Assembly: GCA_001630475.1 (NCBI GenBank)
Contig: KV419405.1
Span: forward strand, 559,841-623,840
Reading direction: 5' to 3'
From: Sistotremastrum niveocremeum HHB9708
Taxonomy: Eukaryota; Basidiomycota; Agaricomycetes; Sistotremastrales; Sistotremastraceae
Length of the DNA: 64,000 nt
A program made the position numbers and the translations under genes. How positions within the stretch are numbered: position 1 is the first letter of the stretch; each line of letters opens with the position of its first letter. The notes under the pieces were generated by a model. The model made no database searches. It was given only the letters and a program-made list of their open reading frames with translations, and was not told where the DNA came from. Shown piece by piece: positions 1-12,310 of this stretch.

Positions 1-2548
1 GATCGTATCCGGCGCAAGGAACAGGAGTTCAGGTCTGTGGTAGATCATTTGCAGTCGACTGATCCCAATGCGACTGATCTCATTGTCGTCGGTGACACCA
101 ATTTCCCAACGTCGATGGAGGTAGCTCCTACTCAGGGTAACACGATCTGGCTCGATGCTTGGAGCGAAACTCATTTGTCGGATGACTCTGATGGAGCGAC
201 TTACAACCCCCGAGCAAACCAGCTTGCATTGAAGACCTCCAAAGAGGACAAGAGTCCTCAGCGCTATGATCGACTTTACCTCAAGGCAGGAGGTCGCTTT
301 GCCGTTTCATCCGCTTCTCTTTTCGGCGTCAATGCACCTGGAAAGGGAGCAGCCAGCGACCATTATGGATTGGTCGTTACTCTCTCGTGTCACAATGAGA
401 CAACTGACGAAGTTCCTGTGCCAACAAAGGAATCCGGTTCATCGCCTATCCAGCATGCGAGGGTGGACCTGTCCGATGAGGCTCTCCAAGCGTTTCTCAC
501 CGAACACTCGCTCATCCCTTCGTCGGATGACTATATATTAAAAGAAGAAGCCGTCGCCCATCTACGGTCTATCCTGACTCAAGCTCCTTCGGTCGTACCC
601 ACGACGGAGGCTTCATCTACCGAGCCTCTTGCCGTAGCTCCCTTTGCCGTCAAACTCATCGTCCAGCCAGTTGGCAGTTTTGCGCTCGGCGTTGACTTCC
701 CCGAGAGTGACGTGGACTGCTTGGTAGTGGGAAACATCAGTCCGACGATATTCTGGGCGCTTGCCCGACAGAGGATCAAGAAAGCCCATCCGACCAGCAG
801 GATCAAGAGATTTGTTAAGGATGCGGCTGTTCAGATGTTGGAATTGGACGTACTCGGTATCAAAATTGATCTACAGTATTGTCCTGCAGCAAGGTTGAGC
901 GAGAAGTGAGTCATTTCGGAGGTCGTAGCTTTTGGCTTTTTATTGACTTCGTATCAGGTGGCAAGAAGCGTGGACCCTGGCACCAAATGATCCAATATTC
1001 TCTTTGCCAGCGTCCAGTTTGCGCACTCTGAATGCATATCGCGATATGCGTGCTCTTCAATCTGCGTTGCCTTCGTTATCTAGCTTCCAGCTCGCCCATC
1101 GCTCGATCAAGTATTTTGCACAATCTCACGGCATAATTTGCAGTCGTCTCGGGTACCTTGGTGGCATCCACATCACTATCTTGTTGGCGCGGGTTGCTTT
1201 TGAAAATTCCACATCGTCAGCCGGTCAACTCGTACAAGCATTCTTCCGTACCTACGCCGACTGGGATTGGGTGTCGTCTTCCATTACTATCCCCAGCCTC
1301 TCCCAAGGCCCATATTCACGCTCGGATAGAGAGCCTTTAGCCATTCTCTCTATTCATCGGCCAATACAGAACGTTGCCGCGCTTGCTTCTGCGGCTACTG
1401 TTCACAGTATTTCCAAGGAAATTCGACTTGGTCACGAAGGCTTGTTGTCAGGACGTTCTTGGGCTTCTATTTGTGGCTCTCGTGACGAAGAAAAGACACC
1501 CTTGGGGCGTTTCCTGGTAGAATATAAATCATATGTCAAGGTTGATATTGCATATTGGGGCCGCAACTGCACGGCAGGTCGGGCACTGGTAGGGTTCCTT
1601 GAATCCCGATTATCCAGGGTGAGTTGCTGAGTTTTCTTTGCCACATACTCTCCTAACGTGCCGCGTCCTTCAGCTCCTCATTCAACTTCGTGCTACTCTT
1701 GGTAACATCGAACTCCGACTATGGCCTGAACGACTCGTTGAGCAACGCCCGACAGTCGTTGCCACCAATGACCTGTCCGGCTTCTACCTTATCGGAATCA
1801 AAGGCTTCGACTCCCACCTTCCGTTAACCGTATTGAACACGTTCCAAGAAACTATCAGGGGCTCCGAACAATATTATGATTCCACCCAAGCTTATATCGC
1901 TGTTTATCAAGTCGCTTCCAAGAGTCTCGGAGACGTTGCACTCACTGTCCGCGATCCTTTCCAATGGGAAGACGGAGGGTTTGATTTGGAAGAAGATTCT
2001 GACGACGAGGAGATCGAACCGGACAGCGATCCTACCTGGGATCAAAACGAGTTCAGCTTCGTAAGCTCCAAGCGTCAACTCAAGAAGAAGAAAAAGAAGA
2101 GAGGAAGCGATCCCGTTAATTCGTCTTCGATAGAGGTTGGCGCAACGCCCTCAGCTTCAACTTCGAAACTACGGACCAGTGCTGATGTATACAATCGGCT
2201 AATGTGGGATCCATACTCGGGCGATAAGGGTGATTTTGTGATCGGTTACGAAGATCGATTCGAAGGTGTTATGGAGATCGGAATATTGAACTGGAAGCGG
2301 GAAGTGGAGGATGAAGCCTTCGTGAGTCCATCGACAGTCATAATCGATCACCCTAACAATGAATCAGATCCCGTTCCACCGGGTGGTATATTTCAAGAGG
2401 CGCTCCGATGGCTCCATTCTCTGGGATAAGTGAGTCTGTCATATTTGGTTCGTATCTCTGATTCTCATTCGCGGATTCTTCTTGTAGGCGAACAAGGCTG
2501 GACAAAGTTTTCGGAAGCGGGAACGGGGATGGAACCCCAGCCGCATGA
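1..2548 (+). CDS. RNA-end processing/repair fusion: EEP fold + poly(A)-polymerase-type NTase + DUF504 (5' partial)
   Basis: The reading frame is already open at base 1, so the 5' end lies outside the window. I read exons 1-905, 958-1618, 1674-2321, 2368-2429 and 2488-2548, all with GT-AG introns. The first ~125 residues are the C-terminal half of an endonuclease/exonuclease/phosphatase fold of TDP2 type: GDTN, an R-Y-D-R segment and a terminal SDHYG. Next is a nucleotidyltransferase head with VGSFALG and the metal-binding D-x-D in SDVDCL, followed by the poly(A)-polymerase central domain (FGYLGGIH-like RLGYLGGIHIT). A Lys-rich stretch (KKKKKKR) leads to a C-terminal DUF504/MJ1316 domain (YNRLMWDP, FVIGYEDR, PFHRVVYFKRR, WDKRTRLD). 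In Pfam that domain is described as recognising RNA cyclic-phosphate ends. The combination suggests an enzyme that senses damaged or processed RNA 3' ends and extends or trims them; that role is inference. A 2H phosphoesterase could lie upstream. Confidence 0.85.
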
Positions 2549-3364: not shown

Positions 3365-5017
3365 ATGCACATTACTGGGATCAGGAGCTTTTTGATAACA
3401 TGCTTCACCGTTGCTATCTCATCATATGTGGCAGCCCAGACAACGCCGTCTTTCTCTTGGACCTTTTCTCCTCCAGTAAGCAACTCTGAGCCTTTGCTTG
3501 ATCCTCGATTTTGATGACGAAAATCAGTCAACTCAACTTATCGAGTGCAACAATGTGACGATAACGATAACACCATCTGCAAACAGCGTGCCAACCCCTC
3601 CGTTCTATATGGTGGCATACGAAGTGAATGGCATTGCTACAACTTCGCTTATCGGGACCGATCCCAGTGATTTGTCTTGGGAAGTAAATCACGTCAAAGG
3701 TTAGTAGACTTGCCTCTTGCTTCGAAGTCTATCGTTAACGTCGGTATAGAATCGAACGTTTTGTTGGAAGTCATCGATGCCAACGGTTCGTCAGGTGGAG
3801 TCACTTCTCTCTTTCACATAGAAAGTAAGTGTTGTCACTCAAACATATCGATGACACTAAATTCGGAATATATCGTAGAGGGACCCGTTTGCACGTGTCA
3901 AACTCCCGGGACCTGGTCTCCCGTCGAAATACACCCAAACGTGACATCATTGAACACTCGTGATGCTCTTGAGTTGGATTTCCAAGGAGGAACACCACCT
4001 TATTCGGTCACGATAACTTCGGAAGGCCTCGCTGTGGTTTCCAATCTGACTCTAGCCCCGAATGAACATGAGTTTGTCTGGACCGACCAGCTCAGTCCTG
4101 GGAGCATCGTCATAGGTATGTTTGCCGCTTTGTTTTATCGATTAAATCTGATCCTCGTTTATCAGCTACGGTCCACGATGCGTACGTGTCACTCGTTTGA
4201 GAAGCTGACCTGCTCATTTTAACTGACGATGGTATTATCTAGGAATGACCAGTACGCCGTAGGCACGTCGATCATAACCCTTGGGGGATCTCCAGGACTG
4301 AACTGTGGGAACAACACATCATCCACTACCATAACTACCACATCCACCACATCTGGGTCTTCTGGATCACAAAGCTCATCCACAACCTCATCGCCATCGT
4401 CTGGTTCTTCGGTACCGACCACATCATCATCTACAAGTACATCGTCGCCGCCTCCTGGTTCATTACCGACGAATCCCTCTTCTGGAACATCAAGTACTAC
4501 CAGCAGTTCTACCTTTCCCCCAATCAGTAATACAGTTTCTATTCCCACATCGCCAGGCGGAACGCCTTCTATTCCACCTACAACGCCTCCCAGTCAACCC
4601 TCTCAACCCCCACCTAATCATAAGCCAGTCCAGATCGGAGTAGGAACCGCCGGTGGTGTCGTCGCTGCCTGTCTCTTGCTCGGTCTTCTTTGGTTCTGCT
4701 TGAGAAGGCGAAAAAGGCTTCCAGGCACTCAACCTCTGGAGGAAGCCCCGGAAACCACGCCTATCAGTTACGGCGCTGCTCCTGTCCCAGTAACCTATGG
4801 CAAACCCGCTCCTCCAGCTCCCGCTGCGGGAGAAACGTCCGGATATGCCTCCAGCTCTACTGCGCCGCCGGCAGCGGGTGGTGCATTGAGCTCTTATAAT
4901 CGCGATGGGACAGTTAATATCGGTTCCACAACCACGCCCAGTCCTGCTCAAGCTCCTGCACGCCCTTATGGTGGACAAAGCTCTTATAATCCAGACGGTA
5001 CCGTCAATATTGTGTGA
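3365..5017 (+). CDS. Type I membrane protein, Ser/Thr-rich stalk, paralog A
   Basis: Exons are 3365-3475, 3528-3699, 3750-3824, 3879-4115, 4166-4181 (16 nt) and 4243-5017, giving 461 residues with intron phases 0,1,1,1,2. The chosen ATG begins a signal peptide ending near VAAQ. The ectodomain carries FYMVAYEVNG, a Cys pair in VCTCQTPG and a PPYSVTI strand typical of a beta-sandwich. A ~100-residue Ser/Thr/Pro stalk, probably O-mannosylated, follows. A single membrane helix (VGTAGGVVAACLLLGLLWF) is stopped by RRRKR. The cytosolic tail is Pro/Ala-rich and ends in two copies of SSYNxDGTVNI, the second forming the C-terminus. The architecture recalls Mid2/Wsc-type surface proteins, but I recognise no named family. 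Gene B downstream is a clear tandem duplicate. Confidence 0.87.
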
Positions 5018-5759
5018 AGGCTAGGTTCCAAACATTTGGACCAGTGGATTCTGCGGTGATGATGCGAGCGATGATTTTTCTCAGTATACCGGTATTGGCC
5101 AAAATATTCGTACATGTCGCTATCTGATCGTAGACTTTCAATGCCCATTCTTCTGTTGTTTTTACATGTAATATCGATCCGATGTCGAAGTCGGAGTTGT
5201 ATTAGACTGTACCTGAAGCCAGCTTGACCTCAGCATCCGATACCTGCGGGAACGACGTTTAGTCTTCCATTTTCGATGCAACCCTCTTGGCGATTAAGTC
5301 ATATTCAGCGTTTGGCGGTCTCGGCTACGCTGCTTGTATTCAAGCGGGCTATGTCCAGGTTCGAGGGGTTGGAGTTGTTCCTTGGTCAAGTTACTCCCGT
5401 GGCTTAACTCTCCCTCTATCGACTACGGATGTACAGTGTATGAAACTCTGTCCAGTCGACCGTTCGTAGTGCTCTTCGGCGATGCTCTTCGAATCCATAA
5501 ATAATGCTGGACCGAATAATCGCTTACTGTGCCTGCCACTGGCCCACTGCCCTGGGCGCAATTGAACGTCAAACGCCTCGACTCCCTATATTCTCAGGCT
5601 GAAAGTAACTTCACCAAGGGCCAGGCCCGCATTGTTTCTCCTATAACTAGTTTTTGCACTTATGAGTGCTCCGACGCCCCCATCCCCCAAGAGTCTGTCA
5701 AGCCTCCGAGTCGAAGATACATAGCGCTTCGTACTGCTGCAAAGCCTGCACAGAGATTG
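5018..5759. other. Intergenic spacer between paralogous membrane proteins
   Basis: About 0.74 kb that should contain the 3' UTR of paralog A and the promoter of paralog B. No conserved coding signal, repeat pair or RNA gene was seen. Short open frames here lack any recognisable motif. Confidence 0.5.
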
Positions 5760-7517
5760 ATGTCCCAGCTACTTGTCTTTTTTACTCGCTATCTATTCTT
5801 GGTCGTCTTTCTTCAACTTTCAAGACCATGTTCGGGCCAAAGTCCATTCCCGCAATGGACATGGGGATTCCCGCCTTCAGTACGTGAGATTGCCTGCCTT
5901 TGCGATCGATCTTGTGGCTCATACCAATCGTTGGCAGACGACTGAATTCACAGAATGCGAGTCTTTATCTGTTTTCGTTTCCCCAGGCGACAGTTATACT
6001 CCTCAACCTCCCTTTTACATGATGGCATACGAAGTCAAGGGTCCTACCACAAGCAGCTTTCTGGGTTCTGATCCAAAAAGTTTATCGTGGCAGATCAATC
6101 ACGCCGCGGGTGGGGCTTGCAATGTTTTGGGAAAAGGACGTTCTAACTAGTTGATACAGGCGCGCAACTTCTCCTTTACATTGTGGACGCAGGCGGGGTG
6201 CCGGGAGGTGTCGCCGGATCTGTATACACGATCCAAAGTGCGTGAAACCGCCAAGTCTTGCCTGTGCAACTAAGTGTACTTATGCCTTCGCCGTGTAGCT
6301 GGGTCCACCTCTTCATGCCATTCGTCTAGTTCGACTTCTCCAGTAGAGATACGCAGTGCAGCAACGACGATCACCACGTGCAATAGTCTTGAGTTCGCCT
6401 TCGGTGGAGGGACTTTGCCATATACGGTCACCATCTTGGTTACAAATTTGAGCGGACCTTCGGTGAACTTGACCCTTGGACCCGATGATAACGAATACAC
6501 GTGGATTGATACGGTCGATCCTGCCCAGGCCGGCGTATTGTTAGGTTCGTGAGCAGTTTACCAGGACATTGTCATTCTCTCAATTACGTCGCATCTTCAG
6601 CCACCGTTCATGATGCGTAAGCTTCTTTTTACCTGCAAAGAATCCTCCTCTCACTTCAGATCCAGGAATGGCCGATATGCTGCCAGCACTGGGCTCATAA
6701 GCCTCGATGGAGGTGCTGAATCAAGTTGTGGTCAAAGCTCCTCATCCGGACAACTACCGAATGTCCCACCAGGATCGCCACTTCCTGGACAGTTGAGCAT
6801 CGGCAGTGAGTCTCGTTTATTTTGTCCGCGCAACCTCCTTAACCAATCACTTCTGCAGCCACACCATCATCGGTCTCACCAGCCGCCCCGCCAGCAACTA
6901 TCACGATCACCTCAAGTGCAGGACAAGCGCCTGTACCAACGGTACCTCCGGGTGCTCCATCATCCACAGTGGTCGTCATTGTACCAGCTCAAGGAACTTC
7001 TGGTCCTTCTACATCAACAGTTATAGTTCCCGCGGGATCGCCCCACCCTTCGTCGACGACGACAGCAGGAAGCGATGCCCCATTCAACGGTGCCGTCCAA
7101 TCAAATCATCTCTCAAAGTCGAAAATCATTATAATCGCCGCCTGCGCCGCTGTGGGAGGAGTCATCGCTATTCTCCTCCTGATCCTCTTGATCATTTGGT
7201 GTATTAGAAGACAGCGCAATCAAGAGCGCGATCGACAGTCGATGATTTATATCAATAATCCGGATAACAATGGGTTCGCTCCCGCTGGTGTTCATATGGA
7301 CCGGTCAATCTCTGGAGCTTCGTCAAATCATCCTGGTTCTTGGAATCAGGGCAGCACAGTAGGGGCCCCTGATCCTGCTGCAGCTATCGGAATACCAAAG
7401 TGGGGAGCGAAATCCTCACCCCCGGCTCCTGCTGCCCCCGCGATTGCACCTCCGCCTGCCATGGAGAGGGCAGCGGCAAATACAAAGTCTTGGAAGGGAT
7501 CTCCGGGAGCTGTTTGA
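5760..7517 (+). CDS. Type I membrane protein, Ser/Thr-rich stalk, paralog B
   Basis: Exons are 5760-5879, 5938-6109, 6160-6237, 6299-6544, 6601-6616 (16 nt), 6666-6805 and 6859-7517. Exon 2 (172 nt) and exon 5 (16 nt) match paralog A exactly in length, and the first five introns share positions and phases 0,1,1,1,2, proving tandem duplication. Paralog B has one extra intron in the stalk. The signal peptide ends near PCSGQ. The ectodomain has FYMMAYEVKG, LPYTVTI and ATVHDA, all aligned with A. The membrane helix is IIIIAACAAVGGVIAILLLI and is followed by RRQR. The tail is Pro/Ala-rich and lacks the SSYNxDGTVNI repeats of A. Likely role: plasma-membrane or wall-facing sensor or adhesin (inference). 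The intron at 6110 uses the less common GTGGGG donor. Confidence 0.86.
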
Positions 7518-7741
7518 TATTTTTATTCTGAGGAGAATTCCCCGGTGGGCAATTCGCCTTTACTCTTAGCTTCGATTAAAGCAATGATGATGATATTCGA
7601 GATTGCGCTTGCTGTAACAGTCTCTCATATATACATGACGTCCAATCAAATTTGAATTGCTGCTTGTTTAAAAGCCCGGAGGAAGCATTCCGCACGACCA
7701 GTTCCTTCAGTGCCATAATTACTTCTTTCCTTGCACAAGTG

Positions 7742-9389
7742 TCATCTACGACGCGTCGCTTTCGATTCATTGAAATGTGATGAACGTTTGCGTGGGTTCC
7801 GCGTTTCACCGCCGCCAAGTGGCGAATCTGCATAAGTTGTCTCAGTATCATTTGAACGCAATTGTATGTGAGTCAAGATGAATATGAACATACTCATGCT
7901 TCCTTCGTCCGTCGGAAGTGGATTTATCTTGTTCTGTATCTGTAGCATCGCACAGAAAGCCTCCGTTTGAGAATTGGTGTACCAAAGAGCTATCAAACCA
8001 TCAATTCAAGCAGTTGCCAGATAAGAAGGGGAACAAAGACAAACGGGGTTCATTTTTTGGCAATCTTTCATGTCCTGCTCGTGGTGCGGTTCGACAAAAG
8101 ACCTGGACATCTGAGATTGGCTTATTCGTGCCAATATTTGTTTTAACCCAATCAAGCTCTCGCGCAATTTCGGAGGACATAGCTGTAAATTTTGGAAGAG
8201 GATCTTGAACACGGGTCAAGGACAGATAAGGATGGAGAGCTCGAGATATGGCAAGCCATTCTGCATCGTACGTTAGACCAACATCGTGAGGCCCGTCTGC
8301 AATGGGCTCGATAGTTAACACCTATGGAGAGGAGTTAGTTCGATCTCTATGCCGAAAGGACTATTGACACGTACCTCAACAGACGCTTGATGGTCTGTGC
8401 ATTTATTGAATGCCTGAAACCGAGTTTCTATCGAATCTGACGCATCTGAGTCGCTGGAAGTCGTAGCGGGAGGAGATGAAAGAGTGTTATGATGATGGCT
8501 GACGACGGCTGAGAAATTGACATGCATATGAGCAGCGAGCCACTGCTTGGGCTTCAATGTCGTCAACAACTGCCTTAATGGCGGCGACCCCAACTCCTCC
8601 TTTTCGCCATCTTCTCTGAATGTCGGTTTCTCCTGATACAGGCCTTCGAAATCACCAAACCGGTCAACGCCTTTCGGCCAATCGTGGGACATGAAGATGT
8701 CGATAGGCGATGAAGCGAGTAGGGACAGTTTGAGGATCTCGTATTCTCGAGTGTGATAGACTGACCTCAGAGTTGCAGGGGTGAATGGAACGCGCTCGAA
8801 ATGACCGAGGCGATAATGCGAGCGATTGTAGATGCCTGATATGCCTGCTATGCGGAGTCCATTCACACGAACACAACCCGCGAAGCCTAGATAATAGATA
8901 TTGGGTGCAAGCCACCCTCCGTGGAATCTATAGTGATGAAGCATGTTAATGAACGGTCGAGCTGCAATCAGAATGAAAGACAGACAGTTCCCAAAGGTAG
9001 TTCGACGCTTCGTGATTTCCTCCAATGACAATGGTCAGGATAGGTGCGAGCTTCTCTCCAGAATAATATCTAATGGCAATCAATGGTGCCTCAGCTCATA
9101 TGTCAACCTTGACTGCAAGAGCACGAGCTCACCTATGGAACCCTCCCAAGCTCTTAGGACCTTCCTTGATCGCCAAACAATGAAGGTCATTGTGGTTCCG
9201 CGCAGCCTGAAGGTCTCCTCCAATTAGCAGTAGATCGACCTTGTACTCGTTGTCTTTCTCCAGTGATTGGATTTGTTCGTAGATCGCATCCAATTGTCCG
9301 TGACAGCAACCTTGAACAGCAACCTATATAAATGGGTCGAGTTTGTATCAGCTGTTATTTTCCCGTTCCTCCGTTGATTTTCACCTTCA
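7742..9389 (-). CDS. dbr1: RNA lariat debranching enzyme DBR1, divergent copy
   Basis: Hydrolyses the 2',5' branch bond of excised intron lariats, mainly in the nucleus. Exons on the minus strand are 9384-9389 (ATGAAG only), 9133-9323, 8986-9069, 8375-8927, 8045-8321 and 7742-7989, giving 452 residues. Metallophosphoesterase residues are present: GCCHG, GGD in LLLIGGD, GGNHEAS, SHDWP and AHMHV. The C-terminal [13 protein letters not shown] motif is in the last exon. Two normally conserved stretches differ from the family and from the second copy: [16 protein letters not shown] (usually CMAVPxKYxxL) and WELFHGGW (usually WELYYGGW). The last exon contains a possible 66-nt in-frame intron (7828-7893, GTATGT...CAG); splicing it would give 430 residues. 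The upstream copy at 10728-12310 shares the intron positions. Confidence 0.92.
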
Positions 9390-9712
9390 TCGTGGACAGC
9401 GTTGAATCCAGGGTTTAGGGTGATTCGATAACATGCCAGGCAGAAATTACAATAACCCTGGCGGCGCCCAGAAATGGAAGTGAACGTACTGCAGAGAGAC
9501 GCTCTCTTCAGCGCTTAGAGACAAGGCCGAACTGAACGTTCGTTGTGCTTGGTTTGGTTCAGAATATTCTCCTGGCAATTCACATGCAATGAAACCGATG
9601 TATACAATGCGACGATGGGGACCTCCATGCTACAAAACTAATACAATCAACGAATGAAGAATGAAAACTTGAATTTGGACGAGCAAGCGAAGACGAGGCA
9701 GTGGTGGCATCC
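9390..9712. other. Intergenic spacer / promoter of the divergent DBR1 copy
   Basis: About 320 bases upstream of the divergent DBR1 start and downstream of the small myristoylated-protein gene, both on the minus strand. No conserved open frame or repeat was recognised. Confidence 0.45.
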
Positions 9713-10521
9713 TTACAAATATTCTTCGTAGAGACGTTTGAACCCTTTCCTGATCCTGATGAGAAGATATCTTCGCAATCTGTTCCTGGATTTCAAGCGT
9801 TTCTTCTCCTCCTTTTCCTTCTCGAGCTGTCTTTTCCTGATTTTCTCTCTTAATGCGTCGCGTTTTTGAGTCATCTCTTCCATAAATTCGATTTCTCGCC
9901 GCATTTGGGCCTCTTTCTTCTTCAATGTCCGGCGCTTGAGTTCTTCAGCTTCCGCAATCGTCTGAAGATATAGAGCATCAGAGACAGAACAAAACAGACT
10001 GAATTATCCTTTGGAGCACAATCACTCACCAGACTACCTGGACTGGGTGGGTAAAACTTCCGTTTAGGTTTGGTATAAGAACGAATCTTGGGCGGTTTTC
10101 TCGGTCGGAGTCGCATCATGGTATCAGCCGACAAGGGTTTGCCATCGTCGACGAACCAATCCTTATAATTAGAGCCCTTGCCATCATCGTCCGAAGATGA
10201 ACTCGATGAATCGGAATCCTTGCCCCGAGCCAGCGATGCTAAGAGAGCGGAGGGTACGTGGAGATCATAACGATTTGAGATATTCGGTGTGGTCGATTCA
10301 GTGTCGAGGAGATTCAAGGTATTATGGGCTGACGGGGGGCTACTTCCAGCGCCTTTGGGAGTGTGATTGGGTTCCGTAGTAGTAAAGAATGCGCCAAAGT
10401 GACCTGGAATAGCGAAGTATTTATCGAAAATTTCATTCTGCCTTTTCATTCTGGCGATATCGTGTTTCTGCGACACAGAAAGAGGGGACCCAGTCGTGGG
10501 CACAGATGGAGCGTTGCCCAT
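9713..10521 (-). CDS. Small predicted N-myristoylated, basic coiled-coil protein
   Basis: Two exons on the minus strand, 10030-10521 and 9713-9961, give 246 residues. The GTGAGT...CAG intron joins them in phase 0. The start MGNAPSVP fits an N-myristoylation signal (Gly2, small residue at position 6), which would tether the protein to membranes. The middle is low-complexity, with an acidic Ser run (DSDSSSSSSDDD) followed by SNYKDWFVDDGKPLSADTM. The last ~85 residues are a strongly charged, basic, probably helical coil ending in RKGFKRLYEEYL. I do not recognise the family. It lies between the two DBR1 genes on the same strand and may have been there before the DBR1 duplication or been inserted later. 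Confidence 0.72.
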
Positions 10522-10727
10522 GGAGAAACAGGAGATGACTCAGGCAGCAAGAAAAAGATGGGTACAAGGCAGTAGTACTGAGGGGAATGCGCTCAATGTA
10601 GTCAGGAGGGCAGACGGGAGAACGCGAACTAGTAATATATATACATCAATTCCGAATCCCGACTGGGTTCCGATAGATCGAGCAAGAATCCTTAGGCGTC
10701 TAAATTTGTTTCCGCAAAGGCTTATAA

Positions 10728-12310
10728 TTAATAATATGTGGGCGACTTGTATGCAGAAGCAACACCTACGGTGCCCAAAACAGACTCTTCAGTGGGTGGC
10801 GGGTTTACTTTATTCTCAATTTTCAGCATTTCACAGAAAGCCTCCGTTTGAGGATTTGTATACCAGAGAGCTGAGACAATGAAAATCATTGAGTCTTTGT
10901 GCTCCAGAGTTTGAAATGATATTTGAGGGACTTACGTTGTCCATTCCAAGCGGCATTTTCACTTCTCCCTTCACCGGGAGCAGTGCGACAAAATTGCTGA
11001 ACGTCGGAAATCCGTTTGTGAGTACCAATATTCTCGACCACCCATTTCATCTCTTTCTTGAGTTTGGAGGAGAGTACTGCAGGGGTAGGTAGTCGGGTGG
11101 CAGTAGAGAGTAGAGATAAGTTTGGGTGAAGCGCTCGAGAGATAGCGAGCCATTCCGTGTCGTAGCTCAAGCCGTCATGATGAGAGCTAGCGATGGCAGG
11201 TTCAATGCCCAAGATCTAGAGACGCACACGTGAGCCACTGATCAAAATCATTCAGAGAGATGTATCCTCCAAGGATAACCGATGTTCTCCACATTTATCA
11301 AGGGCGAGAAAATGAGTTTCTGAGGATTCTGATTCTTTCGTCGGCTCGCTTGAAGAACCGTTCTTCTGTTGAGTATGAGACTCCTGCTGTTGCTTGTTAT
11401 CTGTAGAATCGTGTTCATGACGAACAACAGCCCGAAACTTGACATGCATATGAGCCGAAAACCATCGTTTTGGCTTCAATGACATCAGGAGTTTCATCAA
11501 AGGCGGCGATCCTAACTCTCCCTTGTCCGGGTCTTTCTTGAACCAAGGTTTCTGTTTCAAGAGTCTCTCGATATCCCCATGCTGCTCAATCGTATTCGGC
11601 CAATCATGCGACATGAAGATATCGATAGGTAGAGACGACGTGGAGAGGAGGGAGAGCTTGAGGATGTCGTAGGCCCGTGTATGATAGATCGATCGTATGG
11701 AGGATCTGTCGTAAGGGATGCGTTCGAAGTGTCCGAGGTGATAATGAGCCTTATTGCAAATGCCCGACGATCCTGCGATTCGGAGGCCGTTGAAGCGGAC
11801 ACAGCCTGCGGCACCGAGATAATATATGTTGGGAGCCAGCCAACCTCCGTAATATCTATATTGACGATGAGAACGAAGTCGGGGAATTTTAATAATCGGC
11901 AAGCAACATACAATTCCCACATGTAGTTCGAGGCTTCGTGGTTCCCTCCGATGACAATAGTCAAGACAGGAGCAATTTTCTCTCCTTCGTAATATCTGAA
12001 GGCCAAATAGTCCGTCTCAGTACCAAATAGTTGCGTACTATATCTCAACGCACCGATGAAATCCCCCCAAAGCCTTGTATTTATCCGGTACTGCCATGCA
12101 TTGAAGGTCATGATGGTTCCGAATGGCTTGAAAGTCGCCTCCAATCAAGAGTAGATCAACCTTGATATCTTTCTTTTCCTCGAATGACTTAATCTGCTCG
12201 TATATTTCATCGAGCTTTCCATGGCAGCATCCTTGGACTGCAACCTATTTGGTGTGGGGCACGTTGAGCATAGATTTTTTTCTTTAATGATTATCTTTAC
12301 TTACTTTCAT
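10728..12310 (-). CDS. dbr1: RNA lariat debranching enzyme DBR1, conserved copy with one non-canonical splice donor
   Basis: Minus-strand exons are 12305-12310, 12054-12244, 11912-11995, 11267-11855, 10936-11215 and 10728-10870, giving 430 residues. The first three exons are 6, 191 and 84 nt, identical in length to the other copy. The sequence follows the DBR1 consensus closely: [71 protein letters not shown] and YTNPQTEAF. This is the likelier orthologue of single-copy fungal DBR1. The oddity is intron 4 (11216-11266): where the other copy has GTACGT, this one reads GATACA. Reading through gives an early stop. A canonical alternative pair (donor at 11279, acceptor at 11187) keeps frame but removes part of a conserved strand near the end of the core. 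Confidence 0.88.

Follow-up and report, generated by a model that had tools for sequence, protein, structure and literature searches.

The first 2,548 nucleotides of a 64,000-nucleotide stretch of the Sistotremastrum niveocremeum HHB9708 genome (GenBank assembly GCA_001630475.1, contig KV419405.1, here contig C12, positions 559841-623840; hereafter "the window") carry the 3' part of a gene that, as judged from its sequence, is related to a bacterial four-module RNA-repair protein, with the modules rearranged in this eukaryotic form. Its product joins a 2H phosphoesterase, an EEP nuclease fold, a poly(A) polymerase (PAP)-type nucleotidyltransferase and an MJ1316 (DUF504) domain, in that order (Pfam, whole protein). 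Very probably the protein repairs or tags broken RNA, and it is probably a single-polypeptide, ligase-free enzyme that heals RNA ends and then tails them.

Gene model and modules

The gene starts outside the window. By using the upstream DNA, an ATG was placed at window position -1086, and a model of six exons was obtained that encodes 1,124 residues and ends in a TGA stop at 2546-2548. This agrees with the earlier note, in which a single spliced frame ending at that stop had been read from the letters of the DNA. A second in-frame ATG lies 126 bases farther upstream; because a TATAAA sits between the two, the downstream ATG was preferred as the start. All five introns are GT-AG, are 46-58 bases long and keep the frame. 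Introns 1, 4 and 5 interrupt Pfam domains, introns 2 and 3 lie within the stretch alignable with yeast Pap1, exon 2 is a single open frame covering half of the 2H module, the whole EEP module and the nucleotidyltransferase catalytic motifs, and exon 4 runs from the last portion of the PAP part through most of MJ1316. Given that introns fall inside modules and that exons 2 and 4 bridge them, the model was taken as one gene and not as two neighbours joined. Its features are as follows (negative positions lie upstream of the window).

-1086 to -1, plus strand, outside the window: 5' part of the gene (ATG, 2H domain at residues 21-170, start of EEP), from the upstream sequence
1-2548, plus strand: 3' part of the gene, residues 347-1124 of 1,124, from the six-exon model and upstream DNA
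-1086 to -835, -785 to 905, 958-1618, 1674-2321, 2368-2429 and 2488-2548, plus strand: exons 1 to 6 (gene model)
-834 to -786, plus strand: intron 1 (gene model)
906-957, plus strand: intron 2 (gene model)
1619-1673, plus strand: intron 3 (gene model)
2322-2367 and 2430-2487, plus strand: introns 4 and 5, which split the MJ1316 domain (gene model)
1-405, plus strand: C-terminal part of the EEP domain, residues 347 to about 481 (Pfam Exo_endo_phos)
91-102, 262-273 and 355-363, plus strand: EEP motifs GDTN, RYDR and SDH (motif placement; residues invariant in 80 bacterial rows)
475-905, plus strand: polymerase-beta-type nucleotidyltransferase (PAP_NTPase below cut-off; solved PAPs at 3e-17)
673-690, 709-717 and 862-870, plus strand: nucleotidyltransferase motifs GSFALG, DVD and KID, the last holding the third Asp (motif placement)
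1085-1312, plus strand: PAP_central domain, residues 691-766 (Pfam PF04928)
1674-1712, plus strand: end of the stretch alignable with yeast Pap1, to residue 881 (phmmer range 570-881)
1989-2105, plus strand: acidic stretch, residues 974-987, and polybasic KRQLKKKKKKRG, residues 1001-1012 (by eye)
2172-2490, plus strand: MJ1316/DUF504 domain, residues 1035-1105 (Pfam PF04457)
2368-2382, plus strand: MJ1316 motif IPFHR; a second motif, WDK, spans intron 5 (gene model, motif placement)

The earlier note had described a triple fusion of an EEP nuclease, a PAP-type nucleotidyltransferase and DUF504. All three parts were recovered using Pfam and phmmer, but the fusion has four modules, the fourth being the 2H phosphoesterase that the note had guessed to lie in the unseen 5' half (2_5_RNA_ligase2, PF13563, residues 21-170, E 1.6e-25, 90.4 bits against a cut-off of 27). 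The EEP module (Exo_endo_phos, PF03372) spans residues 228-467 (E 9.6e-9, 35.7 bits against 24.5), and the window opens within it at residue 347. A complete C-terminal DUF504 had likewise been claimed, and the profile search set beforehand as its possible refuter finds MJ1316 (PF04457) at residues 1035-1105 over 74 of 75 positions (E 1.8e-15, 57.8 bits against 26.3). PAP_central (PF04928) matches residues 691-766 above its curated cut-off (E 9.8e-12), and the catalytic part before it falls under the curated cut-offs of both PAP_NTPase (residues 505-643, E 6.7e-4) and NTP_transf_2 (E 1.5e-3).

Among solved structures (phmmer), canonical PAPs match residues 547-755 at 3e-17 and TDP2 matches the EEP piece at 4.2e-4 (23.2 bits); for the MJ1316 piece nothing significant was found (best E 0.51). 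The yeast Pap1 alignment spans fungal residues 570-881 and reaches Pap1 residue 400; it enters the RNA-binding part of Pap1, although the PAP RNA-binding domain has no Pfam match in the fungal protein at E 1. The 2H module scores 35.5 bits with the NCBIfam equivalog for RNA 2',3'-cyclic phosphodiesterase, under its cut-off of 65.7, and no ligase or kinase domain was found in the whole protein with Pfam.

Catalytic and conserved residues

Residues were counted from module alignments of 80 bacterial rows (described below) plus the fungal protein, with catalytic roles in EEP, 2H and PAP as generally known for these families. Eight EEP residues (N231, E263, H339, D378, N380, D436, D466 and H467) are invariant in the 80 bacterial rows and present in the fungus. 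The two fungal 2H motifs are H46-x-T48 and H127-x-T129, and equivalents of both histidines occur in 80 of 80 rows; at the first motif, 56 bacterial rows read HxN and 23 read HxT, the fungal form. The PAP residues G571, S572, D583, D585 and D636 are all present, and the Asp triad is intact in the fungus and in 72 of the 80 rows. Since the catalytic residues are conserved, the 2H, EEP and PAP active sites of the fungal protein look usable. In MJ1316, I1085, P1086, H1088, R1089, W1103 and D1110 match residues conserved in every bacterial row.

Bacterial four-module relatives

A plasmid search with the MJ1316 piece (tblastn) gave seven records (L023-L029), four of which, from Calothrix, two Embleya and Nonomuraea, encode all four modules in 972-1,028 residues (confirmed with Pfam). 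An alignment of these four plasmid-encoded proteins served as the query for a contig scan, which returned 375 pattern matches, 339 of them encoding relatives, and the best 80 were kept (79 loci); the scan was seeded on MJ1316 motifs, and so reaches four-module proteins whose MJ1316 resembles that of the query. With L023, L024 and L028 added there were 82 loci, 79 of which hold all four modules in one open reading frame (ORF), for a total of 80 such ORFs; L070, L073 and L091 have no single ORF bearing all four and were dropped from the counts. According to best matches, the order is MJ1316-EEP-2H-PAP in 80 of 80. The 79 loci belong to Actinomycetota (33), Myxococcota (23), Cyanobacteriota (19), Acidobacteriota (2), Bacteroidota (1) and Pseudomonadota (1). 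Within the phylum of L050 (Hyalangium), 66 of 195 genomes match at 1e-20, and 42 genomes have a match over at least 900 of 971 positions.

In a predicted model of the Calothrix relative, the EEP fold ranked TDP2 first, with PDE12 and CNOT6L lower, and a fold search with MJ1316 of the bacterial model returned no clear match; the structure alignments had 43 and 44 rows. A short protein made of MJ1316 and 2H is encoded on two Streptomyces plasmids (modules by eye plus the 2H match). Several further observations were made on individual loci. In Pyxidicoccus fallax (L064) two four-module genes stand in tandem (4668-7847 and 7851-11264), and in another genome of its phylum (G124:C333) two copies adjoin. 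Calothrix brevissima NIES-22 carries a plasmid-borne four-module gene (L030) and a chromosomal one (L049); beside the former lies a minus-strand gene (10976-11530) that is 2H-like by eye, with two HxT-like motifs. The Calothrix plasmid carrying the four-module gene was typed as conjugative, and the plasmid record L026 appears truncated.

RNA ligase neighbours and the fate of the RNA

An RNA ligase domain was found upstream in 37 of the 79 bacterial loci. Actinobacteria account for 30 of these (out of 33 loci; in two others a contig end leaves just a piece of the kinase) and cyanobacteria for seven (out of 19, with three others having <2 kb of upstream sequence). None was found upstream of the 23 myxobacterial loci (one of which has <2 kb upstream) or of the remaining four loci of other phyla. 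The actinobacterial ligase stop lies -14 to +50 bases from the match start, with a one-base overlap in 18 of the 30 loci, which are closely related and thus do not represent independent pairing events; one Embleya four-module gene is overlapped by a gene with RNA_ligase plus AAA_33. The seven cyanobacterial ligases end 1.2-1.6 kb upstream, and in five cases a kinase-like ORF lies in between.

The main rival explanation draws on the same distribution. Under it, the protein would serve RNA quality control, cleaning broken 3' ends and adding a short tail by which the fragment is passed on to the exosome in a TRAMP-like manner, so that the RNA is destroyed. A PAP-type module without a ligase in the fungal protein, myxobacterial genes without an adjoining ligase, and the polybasic KRQLKKKKKKRG, which by eye is a possible nuclear localisation signal, would all suit such tailing for decay. 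The close ligase-kinase neighbours in actinobacteria and the ligases at seven cyanobacterial loci point instead to restoration, at least there, and bacteria are not known to have TRAMP. We consider decay a minority prospect, at perhaps one chance in a handful.

Kinship of the fungal and bacterial proteins

The best scores of the fungal modules against the 80 ORFs, as whole-sequence bits (phmmer), were 65.1 for 2H, 86.7 for EEP, 75.1 for PAP and 61.8 for MJ1316. In the stand-alone controls, which cover the EEP and 2H modules and are expressed as best-domain bits, stand-alone bacterial EEPs reach 40.5 bits with the fungal EEP. A linker Trp before EEP (W209) is present in 97% of bacterial rows; the linker follows 2H in the fungus and MJ1316 in bacteria.

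Trees were built from 46 of the 80 ORFs after near-identical ones had been removed. In the EEP tree, the fungal module was grouped with the four-module family, apart from TDP2 and two stand-alone EEPs, on a branch supported at 97/94. Two other stand-alone EEPs fell inside that branch, the place of the fungal module within the family was not fixed, and keeping all five outgroup rows together was not rejected (p 0.548). In the PAP tree, three canonical PAPs cluster at 100/99, and the fungal module stands on their side at 79/59, which is not significant. Yeast Pap1 scores 135.8 bits with the Calothrix PAP module, while the fungal module scores 52.7-65.3 bits with solved PAPs. The resemblance of the Calothrix PAP module (L027, 5795-6970) to eukaryotic nuclear PAP is unexpected in a bacterium. 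Because the Calothrix PAP is nearer to yeast Pap1 than the fungal PAP is, and because the PAP tree is not decisive, these data fit transfer in either direction. Common ancestry of a multi-module protein in fungus and bacteria is the simplest reading, with a separate origin of the PAP part possible.

The fungal branches are long (2.73 for PAP and 2.68 for EEP). Such lengths, along with the lower likeness of the fungal PAP (up to 65.3 bits) than of the Calothrix PAP to canonical PAPs, might suggest a relic, i.e. a gene that retains its domains yet is inactive or only weakly expressed. An intact frame of 1,124 residues across six exons with regular introns, together with catalytic residues retained in all three enzyme modules, makes a relic very improbable.

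Proposed function

Returning to end healing and tailing, the family-level activities suggest the following steps. MJ1316 would dock the cleaved RNA end; the 2H module, with its conserved motifs, would open a 2',3'-cyclic phosphate; the TDP2-like EEP module would clear a remaining block, either a terminal phosphate or a 5' adduct; and the PAP-type module, given its conserved catalytic residues, would extend the freed 3'-OH with non-templated nucleotides, probably A. We infer the order of the steps, the base added and the RNA acted on. Sealing would follow in actinobacteria and some cyanobacteria through the neighbouring RNA ligase, which mostly comes with a kinase. Since no ligase adjoins the fungal gene, the fungal product would be unsealed: as in myxobacteria, a healed and tailed end, or else an end handed to Trl1. 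Fungal Trl1 requires a 2'-phosphate, such as a 2H enzyme leaves, and a hand-over to Trl1 and Tpt1 (encoded on contigs C4 and C11) is therefore possible.

Parts of the literature agree with individual steps. ANGEL2, another EEP enzyme, is described as hydrolysing terminal 2',3'-cyclic phosphates (in a passage of PMC9525292), 2H enzymes accompany RNA ligases for cyclic-end removal (in a survey, as excerpted from PMC7824862), and MJ1316 is said to recognise cyclic RNA ends (in a statement of PMC6514570). The role of MJ1316 as an RNA-end recogniser is a presumed one.

Several points weigh against this proposal. The two works that PMC6514570 cites at its statement on MJ1316 end recognition are computational by title. 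TDP2, the closest match of the EEP model, works at 5' ends and fits 3' healing less well. In eight of the 80 bacterial rows the aligned PAP module shows no clean Asp triad (four with gaps, three with Glu at the third site and one with Asn at the second). Sealing is not part of the core, as the ligase is absent beside the 23 myxobacterial loci and the fungal gene. Stand-alone 2H proteins reach 65.2 bits (best-domain) with the fungal 2H, which is no nearer to the four-module family; set beside the EEP control, this means that EEP supports kinship whereas 2H does not discriminate. Nesting the fungal PAP module with the canonical PAPs of yeast and of the fungus itself was not rejected (p 0.112). 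Finally, the fungal module order is unlike that of all 80 bacterial ORFs, for which reason the protein was filed as a relative and not as a strict member.

The likeness to TDP2 also raises release of proteins or peptides covalently linked to RNA or DNA 5' ends, in the style of TDP2 or VPg unlinkase, while the other modules would complete the 3' end. A common fold does not establish the substrate, and 2H, PAP and MJ1316 all point toward 3' ends; we regard this as improbable. More doubtful still is the synthesis or turnover of 2'-5' linked or other oligonucleotide signals, which the 2H and EEP modules could cut and the nucleotidyltransferase could make. The 2H and EEP enzymes AKAP7 and PDE12 do cut 2'-5' oligoadenylates, and the Calothrix PAP part weakly matches the PADLOC "oligonucleotide-cyclase" (28.7 bits). 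However, the nucleotidyltransferase is of canonical PAP type, PDE12 and CNOT6L rank under TDP2 in the fold comparison, a PADLOC search of the fungal protein gave nothing at 0.01, and signalling fits poorly with ligase neighbours.

With end healing and tailing still preferred, a broader picture can be offered tentatively: a descendant of a bacterial RNA-repair protein, rearranged and parted from its ligase, that might sense, clear and extend a cyclic-phosphate end within one polypeptide, as a third route beside Trl1 sealing and decay and possibly as ribotoxin immunity. Fungal RNA repair is known mostly from tRNA splicing. If end-opening, end-cleaning and tailing are combined in one protein, the fate of ribonuclease-cut fungal RNA becomes testable through one gene. 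In two phyla the bacterial relatives link MJ1316 with neighbouring RNA ligases, and these intron-free relatives provide material for testing MJ1316 binding.

Elsewhere in the genome

The genome searched comprised 34.7 Mb in 111 contigs. MJ1316 occurs once. PAP_central occurs in this gene and in one other on C3, whose exons hold canonical PAP sequence, and 2_5_RNA_ligase2 occurs in this gene and in one weak match below cut-off on C44. C4 carries a tRNA_lig_CPD domain of the kind present in Trl1, and C11 a Tpt1-like PTS_2-RNA gene; across the genome there was no match to the PF09414 RNA ligase and no paralogue of the whole protein at E 0.01. The upstream neighbours (L002, 2483-3757 and 3911-5560) were read by eye as a plus-strand SDR oxidoreductase and a minus-strand multi-pass transporter, perhaps for nucleosides, and no ligase-like gene was noticed among them. 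The downstream gene (window 3367-5017), also read by eye, appears to encode a Ser/Thr/Pro-rich secreted or single-pass membrane protein and to have several introns.

Comparison with known systems

Among the closest systems are the bacterial four-module proteins, for example BAY66805.1 of Calothrix brevissima (annotated as RNA 2',3'-cyclic phosphodiesterase ThpR), which likewise unite the four modules in a single polypeptide and have the conserved catalytic residues and a Trp-containing linker before EEP. The bacterial four-module proteins differ from the fungal one in order (MJ1316-EEP-2H-PAP versus 2H-EEP-PAP-MJ1316), in often standing beside an RNA ligase and in being intron-free. Canonical nuclear PAP shares the nucleotidyltransferase motifs, PAP_central and the Pap1-alignable stretch; the fungal protein differs in its three extra modules and its divergence, and the fungus has a separate canonical PAP gene. 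TDP2 scores well below the bacterial four-module EEPs with the fungal EEP (23.2 versus 86.7 bits). Trl1 uses a 2H-type healing domain to process 2',3'-cyclic phosphate ends, and in this respect Trl1 with Tpt1 resembles the fungal protein; their genes lie elsewhere, and neither a ligase nor a kinase domain occurs in the fungal protein. Eukaryotic fusions of MJ1316 to RNA-repair domains have been published (Burroughs and Aravind, as stated in a passage of PMC6514570), and here too MJ1316 is joined to RNA-repair modules in a eukaryote; this exact architecture may already be drawn in their review. The earlier note's observation of a multi-domain RNA-end protein encoded by one gene stands, and its interpretation is partly supported. 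The kind is known; what makes this protein a variant is its permuted module order, its lack of a ligase and its occurrence in a fungus.
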